In this document: positions 6,731 to 50,453 of the stretch, one piece after another
How the letters are laid out: each line of letters starts with the position of its first letter
Numbering within the stretch: position 1 is the first letter of the stretch
Source: Branchiostoma floridae
Taxonomy: Eukaryota; Chordata; Leptocardii; Amphioxiformes; Branchiostomatidae
Direction of reading: 5' to 3'
Assembly (NCBI RefSeq): GCF_000003815.2
Contig: NC_049979.1
Coordinates: 26,331,213 to 26,395,212 of the forward strand
Length of the DNA: 64,000 nt
Notes under the pieces: model-generated
Databases searched by the model: none
What the model was told of the DNA's origin: nothing
The model's input: only the letters and a program-made list of their open reading frames with translations
Translations under genes and position numbers: made by a program

Positions 6731-9700
6731 TTAGCCGGTCAGTCCGACCATTTCTTCGCTGACATGCCAGAGTTTCCTGGCTGTGACGTCATCCTTGCCA
6801 ACCGGAGCTAATTCATGTGGCTTGCAGTCACTAAGGAGGAAGAGAAATGAAGAAAATATCATTAATTAAACGGTCGGCAATTTTCTCAGTTTTCAGCCAT
6901 GCAAAGGCTTCTCTATTTTTCGTTACAGTTACAGTATCAGTATCAGATAATTTGACCTAGGCTTTATTCAGATTGTAAACAATACAATACAATACATGTA
7001 TTATAGATACAACTAAAACGAACGCGGATTTTCTTTTGTTCAAGTAATATCCATGAAAGGGCGGACGACAATATTGAGATGAAAACGTAATTAACAAAGA
7101 ACAATGCCATGATTTTCAGGTCGTTCAAACCCCCAAGCACGCATGCGCGGCGACAGGAATTGTGGGGAACATGTCAAAGGTAAGGGCGCCTGAGACATTT
7201 AAAAAACACGTCAGGACAATGTTGTGCAAATCACCACAATGGTCGAGACGTTCAAGAACTGTTTACAAGGCGGGGGCCTTGACCTTTGACACATGACCCA
7301 CAATTCCTGTCGAGTGGACACTGAGAATGATGAACGAGAATTTTAACGAAGCGCACAGTATCACAAACTACAAGTGGCGTTATCGTAAAACTAACTATAG
7401 TAAAATAACGGTAATGTCGTAAAACAGCCTCACCTGAAGTAAGCACCGGACGTCGTCTCTAGTTCCTTGTCCACGGCGAGTCTTACAGTGGTTTGTGCTC
7501 CTTGTTTGGCGGTCTTGGCGAACAGGTAGACCCAGGCCGTGAAGAAGGGACCAAGTAGCAGCATTATCCAGCCCAGAGTTGTGGAGAAGTTACGGGACAG
7601 CTCGGTACTGACGACTCCCGGATGGAGGGCGTTAGCCGTGACACCAGTACCTAACGGTTGTCAAATTCAAAACAGAGTCTAATTTGCATAATCATCATAC
7701 CATTACGTTTGTCTTTATCAACGTTACCCAGAGTTCAACAGTCATGACAATCCGTTCATCTCTTCTTGACTTCCTCTTTCGAAGGCTGCAACTGAAAGGC
7801 AGTTAAAAACTGAGAGCCCATACATTTTCCGCCAACCACAAGAGCTGTATACCAACCAAAGATCTTGCCCAGATCACGAATTCGCGAAATATCAAAACCA
7901 AATCTCGAGATCTTATCAATATCATGCATTCAATAGTTATCGCATTGACAGACAGACAGACGAACAGACACACACACACACACACACAGACACAAGTTTG
8001 AAATGATGCAAATTGGGTCTTTTGGGTCCCAGTTGTGATCAATTCATGCTCTTTGCATAAGATACATAAAGGGTAATGGTACCGTCGTCTGACTATGGTT
8101 AACTGTATACACAGCCCAATTTAGATGTCATTAAAAGAAAACAATAAAATTGAATGCGTCAAAAAGCCGTTCCTCAAGCAACTGGATATAATTTCGGAAA
8201 CAGACGTTTCAGATAGTACTAGTATCCAGGATCCGCCGTCAGTATCACTGACGACAGATAGTGGATACCTGGATGTCTATTATAACCTTCATCGACGTAA
8301 TGAAATTGGACGTTTTCCGCGTACCTTCTAGCCTCCTGGCCAACTCTCTCATGAACAGAACGCTTGCTAACATGGACTGACAGTACGCCCCGTGCGGACT
8401 GTACGACTTCTCGCCGTTGATGTCGTCAAAGTTGATCTTTCCTCTCTTGTACAAGACGGCAGAGACGATGATGACCCTGCTGGGAGCAGACGTCTTCAGT
8501 AGGTCCAGTAGTAAGTTGGTCAGTAGGAAGTGACCCAGGTGATTCGTGGCAAACTGTCTGTCAAATCCGTCTTCGGTAACCCATTTTGAACAAGCACTTA
8601 CGGCTGGAACGAGGTTTGGAAATTCACAAAAATGTAATTATTAACACGAAATGCGTATATGCTGTTAATATTTTAGGATGGCGAATTACTATGCCTCGAG
8701 TTCGCGCGCATTGAAAATATGCAGTGTTAGGATTTTTTATTATCATTGGCGCAATAATACCTTTAAGCCCTTAAATCTAGAGGGATATCCTTTATTCCTA
8801 TACACGGCCCGGCTTTTCTGCTTCAGAAGTATTTCCTGTGAGAGACGGTCGCTAGATCTGAGACTCCTTTCGGGGATTTGAAAACATCTAAGGTCTATTT
8901 TATATCTACACATACAAAGGCCAACAAATGCAATAAAAACACGTAGCGATATTTTACGAAGTGACAGATAAAGGGCCCTAAACAGAAGTGAGTGTTATTT
9001 AAAGGACGTAAAAATGTACCCTACGTCACTGTGTATGATAAAGTAATCACAAGTCCTGTGCGCATAAAAAAAGCATTCAGGATTCTACTTAACCCCCCTG
9101 GTACCTATGAAAATTTACAAAACTTATTCCAGGGGTGGTAGGAAAGACAGTTTTGCCTTATATGAACCAGTTGGCCTTCTTGGTGTGCTAATCGCCTGTG
9201 CTGTGTTACTTTGATTGTAAAAAAAAAATATCTACAGTTTCAAACCTGCATTGTTTATCAGAATGTCCAGGCTCGTTTCTCTCTTCTTGATTTTTGCGGC
9301 GAACTTGCGAATGGAGGCGAGAGATGCCAAGTTTAACTCCTCCACGACGACATTTCCGTTTCCGGTGGTTTGCCGGATGTCGCTGGCAGCTGCATCCGCT
9401 TTCGTGATGTCCCTGCAAGCCAGGATGACTCGGGCCCCTGGACGGTGCGTGGAAAAAGCGATTGTTTTGTTTGACCGTATGAAATTAAAGTACAATATTT
9501 TCCTTTAATATTCCACTATTATGATAGTTGTTTCCATTCTGTCGGGAGTTGGTAATTCACTACAAATCACCCGGATGGAAGCCTGGTGAACCTCCGTCTC
9601 GCATCAGCCATACGGTGATTTACATAATTCACCATGCCCGGGAGAGGAGATAGGCGCCGCCAGGGGAATAACTGCCTGTCGAGCCAGTATCGGTATGCAA

Positions 9701-12700
9701 ATGTTGTGCTGCCCCTACGACTGATTAAAAAGCTATGGGACTGATTATGATAGTATTATTTAAGTAACATACACGTAAGCATTTAGCCAAATATACACCC
9801 TTCTCCTGTTATTGAACATTCCGCCATCAAAAAATCATTCTTCAGACTCACTTTTGTTGCAAGTTGATTCAATTATGACTGTAAGTGGCGTCATATCAAA
9901 CATTTCGGAGCACAGCACAGTGGGTCAATTACTGAAAATCACCATGATTAAGACCCGATTGCTTCTTTGCGAACCGCTGTGCTAGTTTCCGTTGTCATGT
10001 TAAATGTAACAGGAGAAGGGTATATAATTTGCTGCAAATGCTTGCGTGTATGTTAGCTTAATGATGACTATTATGGACGTGGAATTAAAAGGAAAAAATG
10101 TTTACTTTGGTTTCACACGGTCTCCATCATACAAAGGAGGATATAACCTCCTTGATCATACATCTATATTGCAATATGTCAATATGTTGAAGACGTAGCT
10201 AATAGTCAACTATGATTCGATATTTTTGTAATGCCGGTCGTTACAATATCAGAATTGCGGATATGTGAAAATGCGAATAATTTTACTTTTATTTGAGGAA
10301 CTTTCATGAACGTTATGTACGTCGTACGATACGACAATACAACTGGTAGGAAACAAGCGAAATACTTTTTTTTTTCAAAACGCCGATGGAATGGACACGA
10401 TATGATAGGATGAATATAGGATTCAAGTGGCCTTGAAAAACGCTTATGAATACATATAAGTACTAACTCTAGGTCACTTTTATCCACTGGGTAGCCTACA
10501 TCCTTTGAAAAAAAGGGGTATGTAGGGATGTCAAGTCGACGGACGGACGGCGGGTTCAACTTGCCGTAGTTTCAAAACATTGCAGTTTGAAACCACCGTC
10601 CGTCGACCTGATATCCCTAAGCACTCTGTTTTTAAATGCCACGGATATAAGCTACCCCACGGGTAAAGGTGAACTAACGTTACTTGAGTCTGTTTTTCGA
10701 GGGGTCCCATTTCAGTTCCGCAAATATTTCATAAAACGCTGAGACTGAAAATTAGGTACTAGAATGTTAAACAAAAGTCAAACGGTATGTAGGCAAATAT
10801 ATGCATACCGTAAATTGTGGACAGAAACAGAAGTCATACAAAGGGCGGTCGCCAAACACTGTTACTACTACATAAAAGAACACCTGTTCTATCCACCCCC
10901 TCCCTATACAAACAAAAACCGACCTGGCCTTGAATTTAAAAATCTCACATGAACAAGAGTTAAACGCTAGTTCACGTACCGTTATCCTTGGGGTAAACTA
11001 TATCCGCTGTTTTTAAAAACAGTGTATTTAGAGATGTGAAGTCAGTATCTGTATCTATATAGCCGGTATAACCACCGTTCGGCGTAACACACCAGCTTAG
11101 TCGACGGACGGTACGTGGTTTCAAATAATATTTTCAAAATACAAATTACAGATTGACACCATATAATGCTCCGTCCGTCGAATTGATATCCCTAAATATC
11201 TCTTTTTTTGAAACATCGGATATAGGTAACCTCGCGGATAAAGGTGACTAGCAAAACTGGATTAGTCAACGTTCTGCACCAAATTCAGAAAGGCAGCATT
11301 TCGTTAGATTCAAACAGCCTGGCTAGCTTCGCTTTCCGCTAAATTTAGGCCCCCGAACCAGGCTTTACGTAGGACTTAACCGGTAGTCCGATACACTATA
11401 TATCTGCCCTTTTCGCGTTATCAGCTGTTTTGATTTGGCAAGTTTGGCCATGTTGATTTGATTATTTGGATGACGTCCCAAGGGAACCCAAAAACTGATG
11501 CGAGCGTGCGAATAAAAAAAGTTTGACAAAGAAAGTTGTACTCATTATGAAATTAGAGTGGTCTGGAAGGTTGAACATATGACTGAAAACACAGAATATG
11601 GTATACCAAACGATAGATTCTTCATTTTCGTTCTTTCACATCTTTGACCTTGGAATATTCTCTGACATTAGTATACGTTTTCCGATAGATATTTGTTTTT
11701 GCAATCCACGCCATATATTTGCATATTTTGAAGCTGCTTTGCACGACTCACAGTATGGTTGAAGACTTTTTATTCTATTTTTTGGAAACGGTAAAAAAAA
11801 GTATGCGCGTGTGTATGTTATCCATATAATTAAATGAACATGGCCTTATGATTCCACTGAGAGACGAACGATACCTTTGGCTGCCAAAGCACGTGCTGTC
11901 TCTTTTCCAGTGCCTTTGTTCGCTCCTGTGATGATGACCGTTTTCCCATCGAGACGTTCTCCGCTCTTATACCCACCGTCACCGTTATCACTGTACCGCT
12001 TCCAGAAGAAGTAACCAACGCCTAGTAGGAATTTTGAAAGAAAACAGACGTTGTACATTCTTAGGGACGAGTCAGAAATCATCATTGAGGGTTGGGGAAG
12101 AGGTGCTCATTTTTGACTAGGATAGACATAATACAAAATTTCTCTTTTGCGTATGATCGAAGTAAAATAAAATGAAAATATAAAAAGGTATACATTGTTG
12201 TTGGGTCGAAACGGTATGTGGGCGTTTTCGCCCCATATACTATTCAATGCTTTGTCCCGTTTCCGTTGTTCTTTTTCACGTTACAACTTTTCCATTGTCA
12301 GTATTGTAGTGTGCAACTTACCATCTCGTCTGTACCTCTACGGTCACGGTGTGAGTGTTGACCGCCCACCCGCTCACTTCATTAGCGCAAGAATTTTACG
12401 GGGTCGGTTTCAATTTACTTGACTCACGTATTTGACAGTAATGAGAAAATATGCAGCTAGAAAATTCTAGTAGGCATTTGATTTAGTAGACTAGGTGGTT
12501 TTAAAATACCGTTGACGTTGGTTACCGGTCGCTACTGTACCAGTGTAAGTCACCCAAACGTCTACAAACATCTAAGTCTTAGATTGCTGTCATTCAGAAG
12601 CCATGCACACGGCATGTTCAGGGTATAAACAAACTAGTTCGGGCGTGACACCCCAGGCGAAAAACCGAGTCAGGCACAAAATTACGAGATTACGAGGGCA

Positions 12701-16586: not shown

Positions 16587-17366
16587 TCAAAGGTTCATCA
16601 TCTAGCTATCTGGATTTGTTAGTTTAGAAACATCAAATCATTTTTAGGTTGTAACTGATCACTGAATACAAAGTTTACAGAATACGCAGACTGCCCGTTG
16701 AAAAATTTCCTTGAAATGCATTTGTTGGTAGTTGACAAAACAGAATAGTATTTGAGGCTTTTTATTCTTTTCGGTTTTTCATCTTGAGATAATAGCACCT
16801 ATTTTCCTACACCTTCCTATAGGATTATATGCATTACTGGTTAAAAAACTAGAACAATGCAGTCCCACCCGCGAAATAAACAATATCCTTGGGGAGTCAA
16901 CTAAATCTAGTATATGCTAAAACCTGGCTGACGCGTCCACTTTGGTGGGCGTGGCCTTTAACCAACTGTAAGCCAATCAAAGGTTCATCATCTAGCTATC
17001 TGGATTTGTTAGTTTAGAAACATCAAATCATTTTTAGGTTGTAACTGATCACTGAATACAAAGTTTACAGAATACGCAGACTGCCCGTTGAAAAATTTCC
17101 TTGAAATGCATTTGTTGGTAGTTGACAAAACAGAATAGTATTTGAGGCTTTTTATTCTTTTCGGTTTTTCATCTTGAGATAATAGCACCTATTTTCCTAC
17201 ACCTTCCTATAGGATTATATGCATTACTGGTTAAAAAACTAGAACAATGCAGTCCCACCCGCGAAATAAACAATATCCTTGGGGAGTCAACTAAATCTAG
17301 TATATGCTAAAACCTGGCTGACGCGTCCACTTTGGTGTGCGTCGCCTTTAACCAACTGTAAGCCAA
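16587..17366. repeat. 390 bp tandem duplication, two near-identical copies
   Basis: 16587-16976 is repeated directly at 16977-17366. I found two base differences near the distal end (GGTGGGCGTGG versus GGTGTGCGTCG). Each copy contains a TTTATTC box, AATAAA on the minus strand, about 260 and 650 bases past the thioesterase stop, so the gene may have two equivalent polyadenylation regions. Either a very young duplication or an assembly artefact. Confidence 0.9.
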
Positions 17367-17414: not shown

Positions 17415-19214
17415 TTACATCTTGCTAGTTGCATTAAAAAACTGCAGCAAACACTGCGTTATGTTGTCTACTCCTCTTTTTATTTGGAATCTGATGACCT
17501 CAGGGTGTTCTGGGTCTTCCCAAGACTGCACAGTCAGCACATCTCCTGCTTTAGCCTGTCCTTGGTGGAGTGTCTCCACACGTTTGACCCGGTAGCGAGC
17601 GGCGTCTCCTGTGATGATCGAATACGCACCCTGCTCCGCTCCATGGAAGGCACAATCGCAGCAGTAGCGCACGTACTGATAGAAAGGGGCGTGTCGGTAC
17701 AAATCCATGTCGCTCGGAGCGACTTTCACGCTGTACGTAAACGTTGGCTCTGCCGTGATGTGTCCGTACGGTTCCACAATGGGTACCGGAGGAGCTGCAC
17801 ACAAGTCGGGATATCGCTGAGACACCCAAGCTGCCCATGGCTGGGAGCGGTGCGTCTTGGACGATACACTTTGACAGTGCCTATAATCTTCCGCTATGAC
17901 GTCTTTACCGTTGGCGTCAAGAATCTTCAGCTTGAAGACCATGGACGTCTTCCCTATCTTACTGATACTCAAGGTGTAAGGTATGGAACAACCGGGGACA
18001 ATTTCGTTGTGGAATGAGGGAGTAAACTCAATAGAGAGGCTTCGTCCAAAGAACAGGTCTACAAACGGCGGTTCGTCTTGTGGAGGCGTAAACCAGTGAC
18101 GATGCATATCCGCCCATTGCATATTGGTGTAGCACACAACTCTCCAGATTGGGACGGCACCTGCGATGTATGATGAACAGGAAATACTTTAAAGACATAT
18201 ATAAACATTTCAGTAACTACGAAGTTCATCTGTGTTGGTAGATAGCCGTTCTGAATCGAACCTGTTCTGTAATTTGCAATAATAAAACTAGACTTGCCCA
18301 AATTTTCCACCGTCCAACTCCAATATCTGTGAAGGAATGTTTGCCTAAAATTCGTCTTTTATTCCTTGGGTAGGGGGTAGAAGTTCCTCCACTGAATGAC
18401 TTTTTGTCACGTATTGCCTTATCTATGCGCATCATTTCATTTCATTCTGTTACATGTAGAGTCTATATTCCGTTACAATATTGCATTTTACCTATGTTAC
18501 GTTATGTCTTTTGTACGTATAGTGGTGGAGATGATATAACTTTGCACACTTGAGGGCGCCATCACTAAGTCACGCCTTTCAACTTGAAGAAAAGAAGGGA
18601 ATGCGCAATCGACTGCTTCTGTGACGCCATGTCGTACAAGACTTTACAACCATCCCTCGACAGAGACGGAGGGCGACATAGGCTTTCTGCAACTGATGAT
18701 CCACTGCTGACCGAGTCACATATACTATCTGCATAACGTGACGTCACAGAAGCAGTGGGTTGCTCGATTATTGGACAAAGACTGGATTTGGACATTCATA
18801 ACTTTGGGGTAGCCTAATATTCATTTTTTAGATTACAGATCAACTTTGATCTAGATTGTGTAAGCATTCAGAATGTATAAAACATTTGTTTTCTATATGT
18901 ATACATACATACAAACCCCATATGAACATCGAATGCTTAAACTAATGAAGCTACATGCAGCTAAATAAGCTACAATCAAAATCTAACCAATCAACCAAAC
19001 AATATTTTAGACAAGAAGAAAATATATTTGTGCTTTTATATATTTGATGTCCGTCACTCGCAAGGTATTACATCAAAGGTATTTTGTTACCTGTGTGGTC
19101 GAAGTCCCATGGTTGTGGACTGAACGTTGCGGAGATGGTTCGGTATTTCTCATCGAAAGATGTCTTCACTGATGGTTGGGGCGGAAATGACGTTGTTTGA
19201 ACCGGAAATGACAT
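17415..19214 (-). CDS. double-hotdog acyl-thioesterase-like protein
   Basis: Two exons on minus: 19091-19214 (ATG at 19212-19214, donor GTAACA) and 17415-18160 (acceptor CATCGCAG, stop TAA). 870 nt, 289 aa. The upstream ATG at 19220 opens a frame that stops after 16 codons; the chosen ATG joins in frame. First hotdog half, about residues 45-140: PIWRVVCYTNMQWAD, LSIEFTPSFHN, SKIGKTSMVFKLKILDANGK. Second half, about 175-285: YSVKVAPSDMDLYRHAPFYQ with YVRYCCDCAF, then VKRVETLHQG and AGDVLTVQSW. That is the 4HBT pattern DxDxxxH..Y...Y. The family hydrolyses acyl-ACP or acyl-CoA thioesters. In plant acyl-ACP thioesterases the motif is DxNxH; here it is DLYRH, with Tyr at the Asn position, so activity is uncertain. 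No signal peptide or membrane segment. Neighbours suggest no pathway. Confidence 0.82.
18606..18765. mobile_element. short inverted-repeat element in thioesterase intron
   Basis: GCAATCGACTGCTTCTGTGA and its reverse complement (TCACAGAAGCAGTGGGTTGC) bracket about 110 bp whose core (CGACAGAGACGGAGGGCGAC) resembles that of the MITE at 4731-4965. It lies in the single intron of the thioesterase-like gene. No coding capacity. Confidence 0.55.
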
Positions 19215-19493: not shown

Positions 19494-20841
19494 TAATGAC
19501 AATGACAATGAAGTTTATTGCATATTCATGCCCTCCTAGGGCTAAATGCAGTAAGTCGCATACAAAGAGTCTGATAAGTAAGCTATTCTATGTTCTACTT
19601 ACGACTATATTTCTACATGCTTCTTCCCTCAACATGTGAAGACGAACGACACAAAACATACATAATCTATCATTTGGAGGAGTTCGGGTGTATCTACCAG
19701 CTTCAATTTGTACAGGATGATCACTGATCCTTAGTTTAGTCATGGCTCGGCGATAGCTAAAATTTGTTATATCAAGGTATTTTTCTCTTTCATATGTATA
19801 CTTGAATTTTCTGTAGGTTCTTAATTTATTCCCTTGGTTTTCTTTAATACCAGGGGAGTTAATTTCTGAGTAAAAGTTTTGAAGACAGGTGTCTTCCAGT
19901 CTTTGTTTTATTTCAGCCTGAGCCAACGATGTGTTGTGATCACTGTTAATTAAGCAATAGGTACGCAAACCCTGACTCCTCCAGGATTTTACTAACATTG
20001 GATAGCCAGCATGGTAGCTTACGTCTGTGCAAGTCCTGTTGTACAAGGAAGGCTTCAAATTGTAGGCTATTTGTTGGAACTTCTTTAACTAATCTTTTGT
20101 AATATATGAATATAATCTAGTATATACTTCAATCCACAGGGGATACCTGCCCAATTCTGCTCTTGTTGCTAGATTACTCGAGTTTTTTCTTACACCTAAC
20201 ATCCATTTACAAAACTTAAGATGAAGTTGTTCAATTGGTGACTTGTCGTTCAATCCACTCTTGCCCCATACTTCTGCACCATAAGTCAATATTGGGACAA
20301 CGCAGGCATCAAATAGTTTACAATATACTGAAATGAGAGGGTTGGTATCTCCTAGGGTTGTTTTAATGCTGAACAGAGCTCTTAGAGCTTTCTTTTGTAA
20401 AGTTTTTTTAATCGCTGTTGTGAAATTGCACCCGGCTGTAAACACCACTCCTAAATAGCAGTGTGAGGAAACTATCTCTATGCTTTTGTTTAGTAAATGG
20501 AATTTGAAATTTGAGAACATATGACCCTTTTTGTTAAATACAATTACTTTTGTCTTATTTAGGTTCACTGATAGTTTCCATTTGTTGCAGTAACGACCTA
20601 GTGCGTTAATTGCATTTTGGAGGCCATTTTGGCTCGTTGATAGTAGGACAAGGTCATCGGCATAAAATAGACTTGATACTTTTGATGTATTTAACAGGGG
20701 CGCATCAAAATAATAATGATTTCCCCACGTTTTCCCTTGTCTACATTCGATTTCTGCTGAACACTCTCTTGAAATATAAGTAGTTACTCCATTGGAATAT
20801 GCTAATACTGTAACTATACCAACATCATCATCATATATCAA
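19494..20841 (-). mobile_element. non-LTR retrotransposon, 3' half (RT C-terminal part and tail)
   Basis: On minus, 20089-20841 encodes the end of a reverse transcriptase: SLFYADDLVLLSTSQNGLQN with the YADD catalytic box, then WKLSVNLNKTKVIVF, LGVVFTAGCNF and PILTYGAEVWGKSGL, closing with LGRYPLWIEVYTRLYSY. A frameshift or stop separates it from 19588-20058 in another frame, which carries the C-terminal region with RLCMFC. The tail contains AATAAACTTCATTG then ATTGTC repeats at about 19494-19530, the usual end of CR1/L2-like elements. The 5' part with endonuclease is missing, so the copy is inactive. A more decayed relative lies on plus at 47205-48255. Confidence 0.85.
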
Positions 20842-27508: not shown

Positions 27509-30380
27509 TGTTTTAATCTGCAACATTGTGAAATATAGATTACAAGAACCTCCGTCCGTCGTCTTGACATCCCTAAAACCCCGTTTTTTAAAACAACCGA
27601 TATAGATTGCTGTCCTCTCGCTTGAATAAAATAAAAATGTTTTTTTTATTGTTTATCAATGATTGTTGTTGTAGATGTGTTGTATTTATGTTCTATCCTT
27701 TCGCCTGGCTGTATGGGAATTTCGGGAATTTTTGCTCATCGAATATATCCTTAACAGTAAGCCTAATATTTCTCTCTTTTTGACTTACATATGGCATATT
27801 TTTCTAGCATTCTAACATGAAATGCAGTGTATTTATTATAACGGGCTTACCACTACAGTCGACTGCTGTTGCATCCCGGGCTGCCCGTATCCTGGCTGTG
27901 CGTATCCTGAAACAAAATAGGTTCATACATTACCATATAATATACGCTACCTCACTACAACTACACTCAAGGCTACCTCACTAATGTCACTTCTACAACT
28001 ACACTCATGGCTACCTCACTAATGTCACTTCTACAACTACACTCAAGGCTACCTCACTAATGTCACTTCTACAACTACACTCATGGCTACTTCACTAGTG
28101 TTATTTCTACAACTACACTCATGGCTACCTCACTAGTGTCACTTCTACAACTACACCCATGGCTACTTCACTAGTGTTATTTCTACAACTACACTCATGG
28201 CTACCTCACTAGTGTCACTTCTACAACTACACCCATGGCTACTTCACTAGTGTTATTTCTACAACTACACTCATGGCTACCTCACTAGTGTCACTTCTAC
28301 AACTACACCCATGGCTACTTCACTAGTGTTATTTCTACAACTACACTCATGGCTACTTCACTAGTGTTATTTCTCCAACTACACTCATGGCTACCTCACT
28401 AGTGTCACGTCTACAAATACACTATAAAGGCTACCGCGCCGTATAACTAATTATTTTGGTACTTCCTCGTCATGTCCGGAGTGTAAAAATCCGGCGAAAA
28501 CAAATGAGCGCTCTAATGTCATCCACAAGATTTACTTGCTGTGGCCTAATACACGACAAACGCTCCTTTTGTATTCTAGTCTATAACTTCGTGCACAATT
28601 ACACGTGTTCACTTCCTCATGTGTGCCCACACCTACACATATTGTCATTTCCCTTGTCACGGAAAATCCCAGCTATCAAGTGAGGTGCGCCGGTCGCCAG
28701 GTGACCGATACACAACATTGACACGCTAGACTTGCGGCATTTCTGTCACAACAAAGTCGAACCATCAAAGAAGGGGACCAAGCAAATATTTGAAAAGGAG
28801 ATCTGTCGCAGGACAAATTTGCGAGACAAACAGTCAATGTGGAGAATGTTCTTCCTCAAACTGACAGAAAAAACAAGAACTTTTCTTTCATATAAGACGG
28901 ACATGAAGACTTACCATGCTTCGTGTGAAACTATATGAAAGAAAACGACCCCATATACTTCTATTCAGGAACTTCATAGCTAAGACTCATGTTACACCAT
29001 CAACATTTGTTAACACCCCACCCTTCATTGTATTGTCTTTACAAGCCTTATTAAATTTCATGGTAAACAATCCCACCCACCCCCCTCCCCCCTCCCTACC
29101 CCACACAGAAAAAAAGTCTTTCATTTTCAAATGGGCGTAGGTTATAAGCGCTCAAATTAGATATGTCAGACATTATTACATTTCTTTTAAGTCTAAGATA
29201 AAATCTTTATCATCTTCAGTACTCTCAAATAGCCCCGCAAGGGGTAACGTAGGGGGGCTACGTTTTTTGGTGAGGTCCCGGGTTAGGCTTAGGTCACATT
29301 TCCAAACCGGGGCCCGGCCGGGCAGCTTTCGGGAGCGAAAAGAATGATATCAAAGACATAAAGATATACAAAATGTCAAGATAAATGCATGGGCATGATA
29401 TGTGTGTATTTCTTGGAATACATTTTGAGTTTTCGCTTCTTAAAACATCCCGGCCGGGCCCCGGTTTGGAAATGTGACCTAAGCCTTAGGGCGGGCCACC
29501 CTCCTGCCCGGCACGGAAGGATTCAACGGTGGGAGCACTTACCACCGTGCCAGGCAGGGCATTCCACTCTCGAATGGTTCCTTTCAGTCTAAAATAACAT
29601 ATTTATCAAACCACTGATGTACAAAAAACGAAGAACTCCTACCGTGCGTTTGTGTTCGGTGTGATGATACAAAAGTCTTGTTGGTGACGCTTCATTTACT
29701 AGTGCCAACGAACCGACATATACTAAAACATAATCCCACAATCGTATTATCTGATTCGTTGAGATAGCTAAGGATATCGATCCCAATAGATGACAGGTGT
29801 TTTAATTGTGATATTTGCTTCATTTTGGGTATAAAATTGGCTAAGCTGAGCAAGATCTATGTCCTTCCAACTAGTGGCATGATACAAATGTCTTGGTGGT
29901 GACATGTTAGACGCTTCAATTACTAGTGCCAACGAACCGACATATACTTAAACATAAACCCACAATTGTACTATCTAATTTGTCGAGATAGCAAAGGATA
30001 TCGCTCCCAATAGATGACAGGTGTTTTAATAATTCTGGTGTTTGTTTCATTTTAGGTACAAATGGCTAAGCTGAGCCAGATCTATGTCCTTGCAACTTGT
30101 GGTGAAAGCTAAGAAAACACAGAACGCCAGTTCGTCGCCGTTAAAAAAACAGACGCCGTGTACATACTAGGTATCTTACCTAGAATACGAAGTTTCTTCC
30201 TATCCACAACCACAACCTGTTAGACCGTAACGTAGATATATGTTATATGCTATCGGTATGATTAAGGTACATGTCACATGTACAGACTTCCTCGTAGTGG
30301 TAGCACACTGAAGTGGTCACACTGGATGCGCTAATACGTTAGGCAAAAGAGACAACAAACATACCTGGTGCGACAGACAT
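24350..30380 (-). CDS. CD225/dispanin (IFITM-related) membrane protein, copy A
   Basis: Four exons on minus: 30365-30380 (MSVAP), 27851-27906, 26603-26734, 24350-24529 (stop TAA). All borders are GT..AG, phases match, 127 aa. The N terminus is proline/glycine-rich (GYAQPGYGQPGMQQQ), as in dispanins. The CD225 domain spans about residues 38-120: PDNHVCMAVFTCLCC, FWPIGLASLIFACMVDSRWE, SGDREGAKSASRTASTLWKI. It has a hydrophobic re-entrant segment (45-65), juxtamembrane cysteines C45, C51, C53, C54 and C67 that could be palmitoylated, the GD..GA..AS loop and a C-terminal transmembrane helix (about 97-118). Dispanins act in membrane fusion control or vesicle trafficking; IFITMs restrict virus entry. 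Which role applies here cannot be told. Copy B (33180-36403) is its tandem paralogue. Introns carry a 38 bp minisatellite, a (CTTT)n tract and MITEs. Confidence 0.93.
24586..25112. mobile_element. MITE, TAACGCTAGTTCACC family, copy split by another element
   Basis: The left end TAACGCTAGTTCCCCTTTAA then CCGCAGGGTAA lies at 24586-24618. The sequence expected next (CTATATCC..) appears only at about 24910, after a ~290 bp insert. The right half (ACCACCGTCCGTCAACTTGA to TAAAGGCGACTTATAGCTAG) ends at about 25112. It lies in the intron between CD225 copy A exons 3 and 4, just upstream of exon 4. Confidence 0.7.
24619..24909. mobile_element. ~290 bp MITE (GGGTTGTAC family) nested in another MITE
   Basis: The ends ..ATAACCCGCCGTACGTGCAA and CACGTACGGTGGGTTGTACC are inverted repeats of about 22 bp. 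Internally AACGTGGGGAACGACTGGCA and CAAAAGTTTGCCGACGTTTT are shared with the second copy at 50015-50330 at clearly high similarity. It interrupts the host MITE between GGGTAA and CTATATCC. No coding capacity. Confidence 0.8.
25228..25612. mobile_element. ~400 bp inverted-repeat family copy
   Basis: Left end TGAATTGATTATATGGATGA followed by CATCCG; right end GGATGTCATCCATATAATCA followed by AATCAACATGGCC. Interior AT-rich, noncoding. Same family as 11444-11853. It lies in CD225 copy A intron 3. Confidence 0.7.
26778..26985. mobile_element. MITE, TAACGCTAGTTCACC family, worn copy
   Basis: Begins TAAGTTCACCTCTGTCCGCG, contains TGACCTATATCCACTG and the mirrored CTGCAATATTTTGAAAACAT, and ends GGATAAAGGTAAACTAGTAT. 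More diverged than other copies. It lies 45 bp from the acceptor side of CD225 copy A exon 3. Confidence 0.65.
27055..27345. mobile_element. rearranged pieces of the ~400 bp inverted-repeat family
   Basis: The right-end sequence GGATGCTATCCATATAATCG then AATCAACATGGCC (27063-27096) comes before a left-end sequence CCATGTTGATTTGATTGTAT then GCATAACATCTTCTGGGAAC (27206-27245). This order is opposite to that of an intact element, so two truncated copies or an inversion are present. Confidence 0.5.
27355..27505. repeat. (CTTT)n microsatellite
   Basis: Long pyrimidine tract of CTTT and related units on plus, best preserved at 27430-27505. It lies in intron 2 of CD225 copy A. The Lys/Glu/Arg- and Phe/Leu-repeat open frames through it are by-products. 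Confidence 0.95.
27518..27612. mobile_element. MITE, TAACGCTAGTTCACC family, right half only
   Basis: Only the right half remains: ACCTCCGTCCGTCGTCTTGA, CATCCCTAAAACCCCGTTTT and ACAACCGATATAGATTG. It starts just after the (CTTT)n tract, which may have replaced the left half. Confidence 0.6.
27945..28436. repeat. 38 bp minisatellite, about 12 units
   Basis: The unit TCACTAGTGTCACTTCTACA + ACTACACTCATGGCTACC (38 bp) repeats about 12 times. The central units alternate between two variants (TCACTTCTACAACTACACCC versus TTATTTCTACAACTACACTC), so a 76 bp higher-order repeat exists. It is in intron 1 of CD225 copy A. Degenerate copies lie about 2.5 kb away near 30865-30960 (ACAACTACAGTCATGGCTAG). 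Confidence 0.9.
28440..29280. other. CD225 copy A intron 1 sequence, nothing recognised
   Basis: No exon or complete repeat seen. A TTTACTTGCTGTGGCCTAAT end at 28530-28550 also appears near 30983, 34141 and 44890 and marks a further short repeat that I could not delimit. Confidence 0.4.
29281..29490. mobile_element. MITE with long GC-rich inverted repeats, copy 1
   Basis: GGCTTAGGTCACATTTCCAA followed by ACCGGGGCCCGGCCGGGCA is mirrored by CCCGGCCGGGCCCCGGTTTG then GAAATGTGACCTAAGCC; the 40 bp arms are almost perfect. About 205 bp in all. A second, more diverged copy is at 39958-40168. It lies in CD225 copy A intron 1. Confidence 0.85.
29665..30105. repeat. ~215 bp tandem duplication in CD225 copy A intron 1
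   Basis: 29665-29873 and about 29880-30105 share ACTAGTGCCAACGAACCGAC, CCCAATAGATGACAGGTGTT and GGCTAAGCTGAGC.. with moderate divergence. A single weaker counterpart occurs near 35960-36125 in the same intron position of CD225 copy B, so this duplication probably arose in copy A after the genes separated. Confidence 0.75.
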
Positions 30381-50380: not shown

Positions 50381-50453
50381 CGAGTCTGCCAGGATTCGAG
50401 CCTGCAATCTTCTGATCCGAAGTCAGACGCGTTATCCATTACGCTACTGGCCC
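50381..50453 (-). tRNA. tRNA-Arg(UCG)-like sequence, possibly a pseudogene
   Basis: Minus strand, 73 nt: acceptor GGGCCAG, A box TAGCGTAATGG, four-pair D stem, anticodon arm TCTGA-CTTCGGA-TCAGA with anticodon TCG, T loop CTCGAAT (B box GGCTCGAATCC), 3' end CAGACTC then G. It is close to the usual metazoan tRNA-Arg layout. Two acceptor pairs (4:69 and 6:67) and the outer T-stem pair are mismatched. A TTTT/TTTTTT pol III stop follows within about 15 nt, as at genuine tRNA genes. The mismatches make a pseudogene or a recently decayed gene about as likely as a working one. Confidence 0.55.

Follow-up and report, generated by a model that had tools for sequence, protein, structure and literature searches.

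Does an SDR gene with an intact gene structure and two of its four catalytic residues replaced still serve the animal, and if so in what manner? The question is raised by an RDH11/12-like gene on the minus strand of the window, i.e., the whole 64,000-nucleotide stretch of Branchiostoma floridae DNA analysed here (C1:26331213-26395212 of a 513.4-Mb assembly of 431 contigs, which was also the genome searched). The gene is called W below and its residues are numbered from the ATG at 12082. The reading preferred here, with a probability of about 0.7, is that W belongs by descent to the RDH11/12-like SDR expansion of this genome, is deficient in catalysis and has been kept by selection, likely with a binding role.

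W runs from 12082 to 6731 of the window in five coding exons, with a frame of 996 nt and a protein of 331 aa (332 aa if the in-frame ATG one codon upstream, at 12085, serves as start). Its features are the following (window positions):

11875..12082, minus strand: coding exon 1, aa 1-69 plus 1 nt, with an N-terminal stretch that includes hydrophobic residues, and TGANKGTG; GT donor
11906..11929, minus strand: cofactor motif TGANKGTG, aa 52-59, TGxxxGxG pattern retained; coordinates derived from exon 1
9246..9437, minus strand: coding exon 2, aa 70-133, terminating in LINNA + G; counterpart matched in paralogues
8325..8603, minus strand: coding exon 3, the active-site exon, aa 134-226
8542..8544, minus strand: codon of Asn154, the retained catalytic Asn, within NHLGHF
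8458..8460, minus strand: codon GCC of Ala182, at the catalytic Ser position, within VIIVSAVLY
8383..8385, minus strand: codon of Tyr207, the retained catalytic Tyr
8371..8373, minus strand: codon ATG of Met211, at the catalytic Lys position, in YCQSM
8362..8364, minus strand: codon of Ser214, a position with Asn in 78/80 bacterial relatives (best 80 of at least 584)
7434..7650, minus strand: coding exon 4, aa 227-298, with LHPG inside
6731..6830, minus strand: coding exon 5 and stop, aa 299-331; the tail beginning SDC resembles the tails of many paralogues

The four introns are all GT-AG, with phases 1,1,1,2, and the 996 nt contain no internal stop; the splice sites and phases are as intact as a previous sequence-only reading had claimed. 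The same reading counted six exons; five coding exons were found, and what it numbered exon 4 is the third of these. A six-exon model was rejected, since a tblastn search with the W protein over the 64 kb gave the five coding exons plus two matches at E 4.6 and 9.4. As nothing else was matched by this search, the window showed no second version of exon 3 that has an intact active site. The residues that had been named from the letters alone are all in place: (i) Ala for the catalytic Ser in VIIVSAVLY (Ala182, codon 8460-8458); (ii) Met for the catalytic Lys (Met211, codon 8373-8371); (iii) NNAA, with Ala134 at the exon 2/3 join; (iv) Tyr207, Asn154 of NHLGHF and TGANKGTG (aa 52-59), all retained. 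With reference to the tetrad of a competent SDR, W has the Asn and the Tyr and lacks the Ser and the Lys.

The W protein carries a classical SDR domain (PF00106, 109.4 bits for a curated cut-off of 26.6), although the NNAG motif of classical SDRs reads NNAA. Among NCBIfam models the protein comes closest to PRK06197 (252.6 bits for a curated cut-off of 268) and PRK06196 (231.2 bits for 414), in both cases below the cut-off, and its best solved structure by sequence is PDB 3rd5 (molecule MYPAA.01249.C); bacterial oxidoreductases of the PRK06197/PRK06196 type and 3rd5 are, by sequence, the family models and structure closest to W. The PF00106 domain and TGxxxGxG are common to W, to human RDH11, RDH12, RDH13 and RDH14 (SDR7C) and to the amphioxus Rdh11/12 expansion. 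The kinship of W to RDH11/12 specifically is presumed from the sequence-only reading, from the family treated in the amphioxus paper and from background on the human proteins. A lancelet source fits the large family in this genome: PMC8387019 reports 22 Rdh11/12 genes in amphioxus, a lineage-specific expansion. W differs from the human proteins in two respects given in the available part of PMC9859523: the human catalytic consensus is YCHSK or YSRSK where W reads YCQSM, and the human RDH11 gene is split into 7 exons (phases 122221), W into five coding exons (phases 1112).

How unusual are the replaced residues? At least 584 relatives were confirmed and the best 80, all bacterial, were kept for residue counts. 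The search patterns contained TNHLGHF and TVxITGAN-like stretches, with the Ser, Tyr and Lys positions outside them; that Asn154 and the cofactor motif are so conserved here is thus partly due to the choice of the sample. These PRK06197/PRK06196-type relatives have Ser, Tyr and Lys in 80/80 cases each (best 80 of at least 584), including the Ser and Lys that W lacks; the catalytic Asn is likewise present in 80/80 of the same best 80, a sample partly selected by TNHLGHF. Position 134, Ala in W, is Gly in 78/80 and Ala in 2/80 (best 80 of at least 584), and the paralogue P118 also reads Ala at the Gly of NNAG (unspliced translation). NNAA is therefore less special in W than the losses of Ser and Lys.

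At the columns that are at least 90% conserved among the bacterial relatives (best 80 of at least 584), W departs at 11/67, nine of them in exon 3 (9/32 vs. 2/35 elsewhere, Fisher p 0.02). Bacterial sequences left out in turn from the same best 80 depart at 2.5 columns on average and at 12 at most, and 2/80 reach 11. At the columns conserved to at least 95%, W departs at 8/44, a number that 0/80 bacterial sequences reach (best 80 of at least 584). Mean identity to the bacteria (again best 80 of at least 584) is 0.47 in exon 3, vs. 0.59 among bacteria, and 0.30 in exon 5, vs. 0.44.

The genome's own copies give a closer comparison. Searched with the exon 3 protein, the genome yielded 27 matches out of 35 scored candidates, which were taken to represent 25 genes (W among them); this count merges the match pairs L120/L125 and L123/L124, each taken as one gene, and assumes that the most distant matches (P121-P123) belong to the subfamily. 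The catalytic Lys is missing in W only (1/25, present in 24/25), the catalytic Ser in W, P100, P110 and P119 (4/25, present in 21/25) and the catalytic Tyr in P110 (Asn) and P119 (Phe), i.e., 2/25. The catalytic Asn is present in 24/24 genes whose match covers that position. A comparison of 19 sequences (W and 18 paralogues) leaves out P103, P121, P118, P120, P122 and P123, which were incomplete or not built. There W departs at 6/69 columns invariant among the 18 paralogues, Lys211 and Gly134 included, which is the highest value (0-5 for left-out paralogues); at columns conserved to at least 90% it departs at 8/94, inside the range of the others (0-11). With reference to the paralogues no significant excess of its departures falls in exon 3 (p 0.14, 0.57 and 0.18 at the 90%, 85% and 100% thresholds, respectively). 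A decay focused on exon 3 was rejected on these grounds: p is 0.02 against the bacteria but 0.14-0.57 against the paralogues, and identity falls in exon 5 too.

It may be asked whether the reference sequence can be trusted. W is known from one assembled copy only, and an assembly error or a rare allele would mean that the changes are not the normal sequence of the species. Against this, a DNA search of the 513-Mb assembly with exon 3 gave 17 matches, W itself being the only one at 100% and the next standing at 82%, so that no second haplotype copy contradicts W; moreover Ala182 and Met211 are accompanied by many other in-frame changes, and Ala182 is also found in P100. An artefact of this kind is highly improbable.

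P100 (aligned part C1:21398780-21401163) is the sister of W: the two are grouped with a support of 100 in DNA trees and 99 in the protein tree, the exon 3 proteins are 78% identical and the exon boundaries match. It sits about 5 Mb from W on the same contig, among clustered related copies. The flanking sequence places the internal junctions of P100, P104 and P108 where those of W are, which indicates shared exon boundaries. P100 reads VSARLY...YCQSKLANVLF, with Ala at the catalytic Ser as in W, but it differs from W in retaining Lys211, Gly134, Pro139 and Asn214. Because P100 shares Ala182 and yet keeps the Lys, whose loss is found in W only, the loss of Ser182 probably dates from before the split of W and P100, in their common ancestor, and that of Lys211 from afterwards, on the lineage of W alone, where the nearby conserved positions 134, 139, 178 and 214 would have changed as well. 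This order is the simplest reading from a comparison of existing sequences.

What would these two losses mean for catalysis? The roles of the tetrad residues in SDR enzymes are described in PMC12538056. In the available part of PMC9859523, SDR7C is absent from the human families listed with the full N-S-Y-K tetrad; the need for Ser in SDR7C thus rests on the conservation reported here and on other SDRs. In SDR5C1/HSD17B10, a protein of human mitochondrial RNase P, the K172A change abolished dehydrogenase activity and left the part that the protein plays in two complexes, the tRNA methyltransferase and RNase P, unimpaired (PMC3526285, available part). By analogy, ordinary turnover by W with both Ser and Lys gone is very unlikely, and classical SDR catalysis has, to judge by the residues, very probably been lost. 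The former proposal of a pseudoenzyme stands as far as two of the four tetrad residues are missing; the inactivity itself we infer.

Catalysis might also have been altered instead of lost. W would then work through Tyr207, with the part of Ser182 taken by Ser181 or some other side chain, and with a relocated positive charge or in a non-redox reaction. Tyr207, Asn154 and the cofactor motif are retained and Ser181 adjoins the lost Ser, all of which would suit such an enzyme; catalytic residues have migrated in other families of pseudoenzymes (PMC10211241, available part). On the other side, the Lys is present in 80/80 bacterial relatives (best 80 of at least 584) and in 24 of the 25 genes of this genome, SDR5C1 lost its activity when the Lys was changed to Ala (PMC3526285, available part), and the sequence of W offers no obvious substitute Lys beside position 211. 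We regard an altered mechanism as quite unlikely.

Whether a gene disarmed in this manner has been kept was addressed by branch dN/dS, with a custom GY94-type codon likelihood applied to sets of 12 genes (P103 included, with exons missing), 14 genes and 5 genes. W and P100 compared pairwise have dN 0.207 and dS 1.31 (NG86). The dN/dS of the W branch, which averages over a long branch with near-saturated synonymous sites (dS >1), is 0.108 (12 genes), 0.103 (14 genes) and 0.103 (5 genes), and a value of 1 is rejected in each set (p 5.6e-16, 6.5e-11 and 1.4e-13, respectively). Exon 3 alone has a dN/dS of 0.111 (1 rejected, p 6e-9, 12-gene set). In the 5-gene set the value 1 is rejected for W in every part of the gene: exon 1 (p 0.027), exon 2 (p 2e-4, with branch lengths at the optimiser's bound), exon 3 (p 3e-11) and exons 4+5 (p 2e-4). 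In all three sets the W branch (0.10-0.11) lies below the background (0.18-0.19), with p 0.04 for the difference in the 12-gene fit. The branch of P100 has a dN/dS of 0.17-0.19 and rejects 1 (p 0.016 with 14 genes, p 0.003 with 5 genes), so that this Ser-less relative appears retained too; most of this signal comes from exon 2 (p 2e-4), with p 0.39, 0.71 and 0.12 for exons 1, 3 and 4+5 alone, respectively.

Other values in the 14-gene fit show what the test can tell. The branch of P110 has a dN/dS of 0.18 (1 rejected, p 1.6e-9) and that of P119 a dN/dS of 0.57, indistinguishable from 1 (p 0.29); P115, with a stop codon, has 0.48 and rejects 1 weakly (p 0.019). The tetrad-intact sister of P119, P114, is also raised (0.33). 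With intact P114 at 0.33 and a weak rejection of 1 for P115, the separation of intact and broken copies by this test is not clean. The codon fit is able to show raised values, W shows none, and such values are found outside the broken copies too.

The sequence-only reading had argued for a retained rather than a dead gene, and had taken a dN/dS near 1 together with no expression as one thing that would speak against it. Its argument is strengthened: the branch of W is at about 0.10 with 1 rejected in the 12-, 14- and 5-gene fits, and P119 (0.57) and P115 (0.48) are higher within the same fit. The remaining competitor is a recently dying gene, i.e., one that worked until lately, lost its Lys on the way out and is too young to have gathered stops. 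Several observations agree with it: the Lys loss is private to W and of no datable age; other conserved positions (134, 139, 178 and 214) are altered as well; the family includes P115, which bears a stop, and P119, whose dN/dS is indistinguishable from 1. A neutral simulation kept the frame open in 4/1000 copies at 0.2 substitutions per site and in 512/1000 at 0.02, so that about half of the copies that young would still be stop-free. Since the dN/dS of W averages over a long branch, relaxation after a late loss of Lys is compatible with the low value. Several others count against a dying gene: (i) the dN/dS of 0.10-0.11 is lower than the background of 0.18-0.19 (p 0.04, 12 genes), and that of exon 3 alone is 0.11; (ii) the loss of Ser probably predates the split from P100, and the branches of W and P100 both reject 1 for the whole gene; (iii) splice sites, phases and frame are all intact. 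Recent death is on balance unlikely, and selective retention of W for most of its history is held with high confidence.

A selectively retained, catalysis-deficient W leaves the manner of its action to be proposed. According to the available part of PMC10211241, a pseudoenzyme is defined by the lack of conserved catalytic motifs in its sequence, and such proteins are known in many families; in W, residues of the catalytic motif are missing and retention by selection is seen as a branch average. What is kept comprises the glycine-rich cofactor motif, NHLGHF, the Tyr, most of the surroundings of NHLGHF and of the YxxxK segment, and the C-terminal tail. In SDRs the corresponding helices form the usual dimer interface. 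A binding role is favoured because catalytic turnover is very unlikely and because the features that a folded, cofactor-shaped, dimer-forming SDR would need are kept; W would be a folded SDR protein that acts by binding. The most plausible mode would be pairing with active RDH11/12-like paralogues, with a change in their level or activity; this heteromer version is put forward tentatively. W might otherwise hold a retinaldehyde-like ligand or NADP(H). It should be added that the changes from Lys to Met and from NNAG to NNAA could weaken cofactor binding and sheet packing in W.

SDR5C1/HSD17B10 offers a precedent, in that its non-catalytic, partner-binding role outlives the loss of Lys; the natural protein differs from W in being an active moonlighting enzyme with the full Asn-Ser-Tyr-Lys tetrad. 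Among the literature titles examined, none was recognised that treats W or disarmed lancelet RDH11/12 copies. Drosophila Fbp2 is a further precedent. Pseudoenzymes in many families (PMC10211241) and a non-catalytic SDR role (PMC3526285) are already known. To these W would add a predicted pseudoenzyme derived from RDH11/12 with a readable two-step history.

Does the case of W extend to its family? W and P100 are a constrained pair without Ser, and P110, although it lacks Ser and Tyr, is constrained as well; these observations suggest that the RDH11/12-like expansion may repeatedly yield catalytically disarmed SDRs that are then kept, a possibility for which we claim limited confidence. If it held, the retinoid metabolism of this chordate would be adjusted through a set of dead paralogues binding to active ones, and one genome would offer the loss of Ser and then of Lys as successive steps. 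Papers on how chordate retinoic acid signalling evolved make use of the amphioxus lineage (e.g., PMC8387019, available part). Natural SDRs without Ser and Lys that are nevertheless under selection would be good material for the study of how enzymes become binders or regulators. A stepwise test is possible from one genome, which contains tetrad-intact copies, P100, W, P110 (apparently constrained), P119 (apparently relaxed) and P115 (stop).

Several paralogues have features of their own. P110 (L110 / C12:732914-733189), with Ala for the catalytic Ser, Asn for Tyr and the branch dN/dS of 0.18, is a second candidate pseudoenzyme. P119 (L119 / C1:9681942-9682214), with Ser to Ala, Tyr to Phe and a dN/dS of 0.57, is possibly decaying. 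P115 (L115 / C1:6863599-6863877) has an in-frame TGA in exon 3 and may be a pseudogene within a cluster of related copies. In P113 (L113 / C1:3893609-3893866) the matches to exons 1 to 5 are contiguous without introns, which suggests a retrocopy; Ser, Tyr and Lys are retained. Tandem exon-4-like matches occur in P110 (L129, C12:727001-737000; three, at genome positions 734166, 734458 and 734764) and in P107 (L107; four, at 2109, 2298, 2488 and 2679), and these could be alternatively used exons.

The rest of the window contains a few further features. A reverse transcriptase fragment (PF00078, 35.3 bits) lies at 20092-20841 on the minus strand, and the neighbouring open frame (19591-20088, minus strand) has no Pfam match. 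Another open frame, of 257 codons, at 17418-18188 on the minus strand, has no Pfam match at E 0.001. At 16587-17366 a 390-bp unit is present in two tandem copies that are 99% alike, which points to a recent duplication or an assembly effect. A 38-bp unit is repeated at 27955-28423 in about 12 copies with 91% matches, and a tRNA-Arg (tcg) is located at 50381-50453 on the minus strand.
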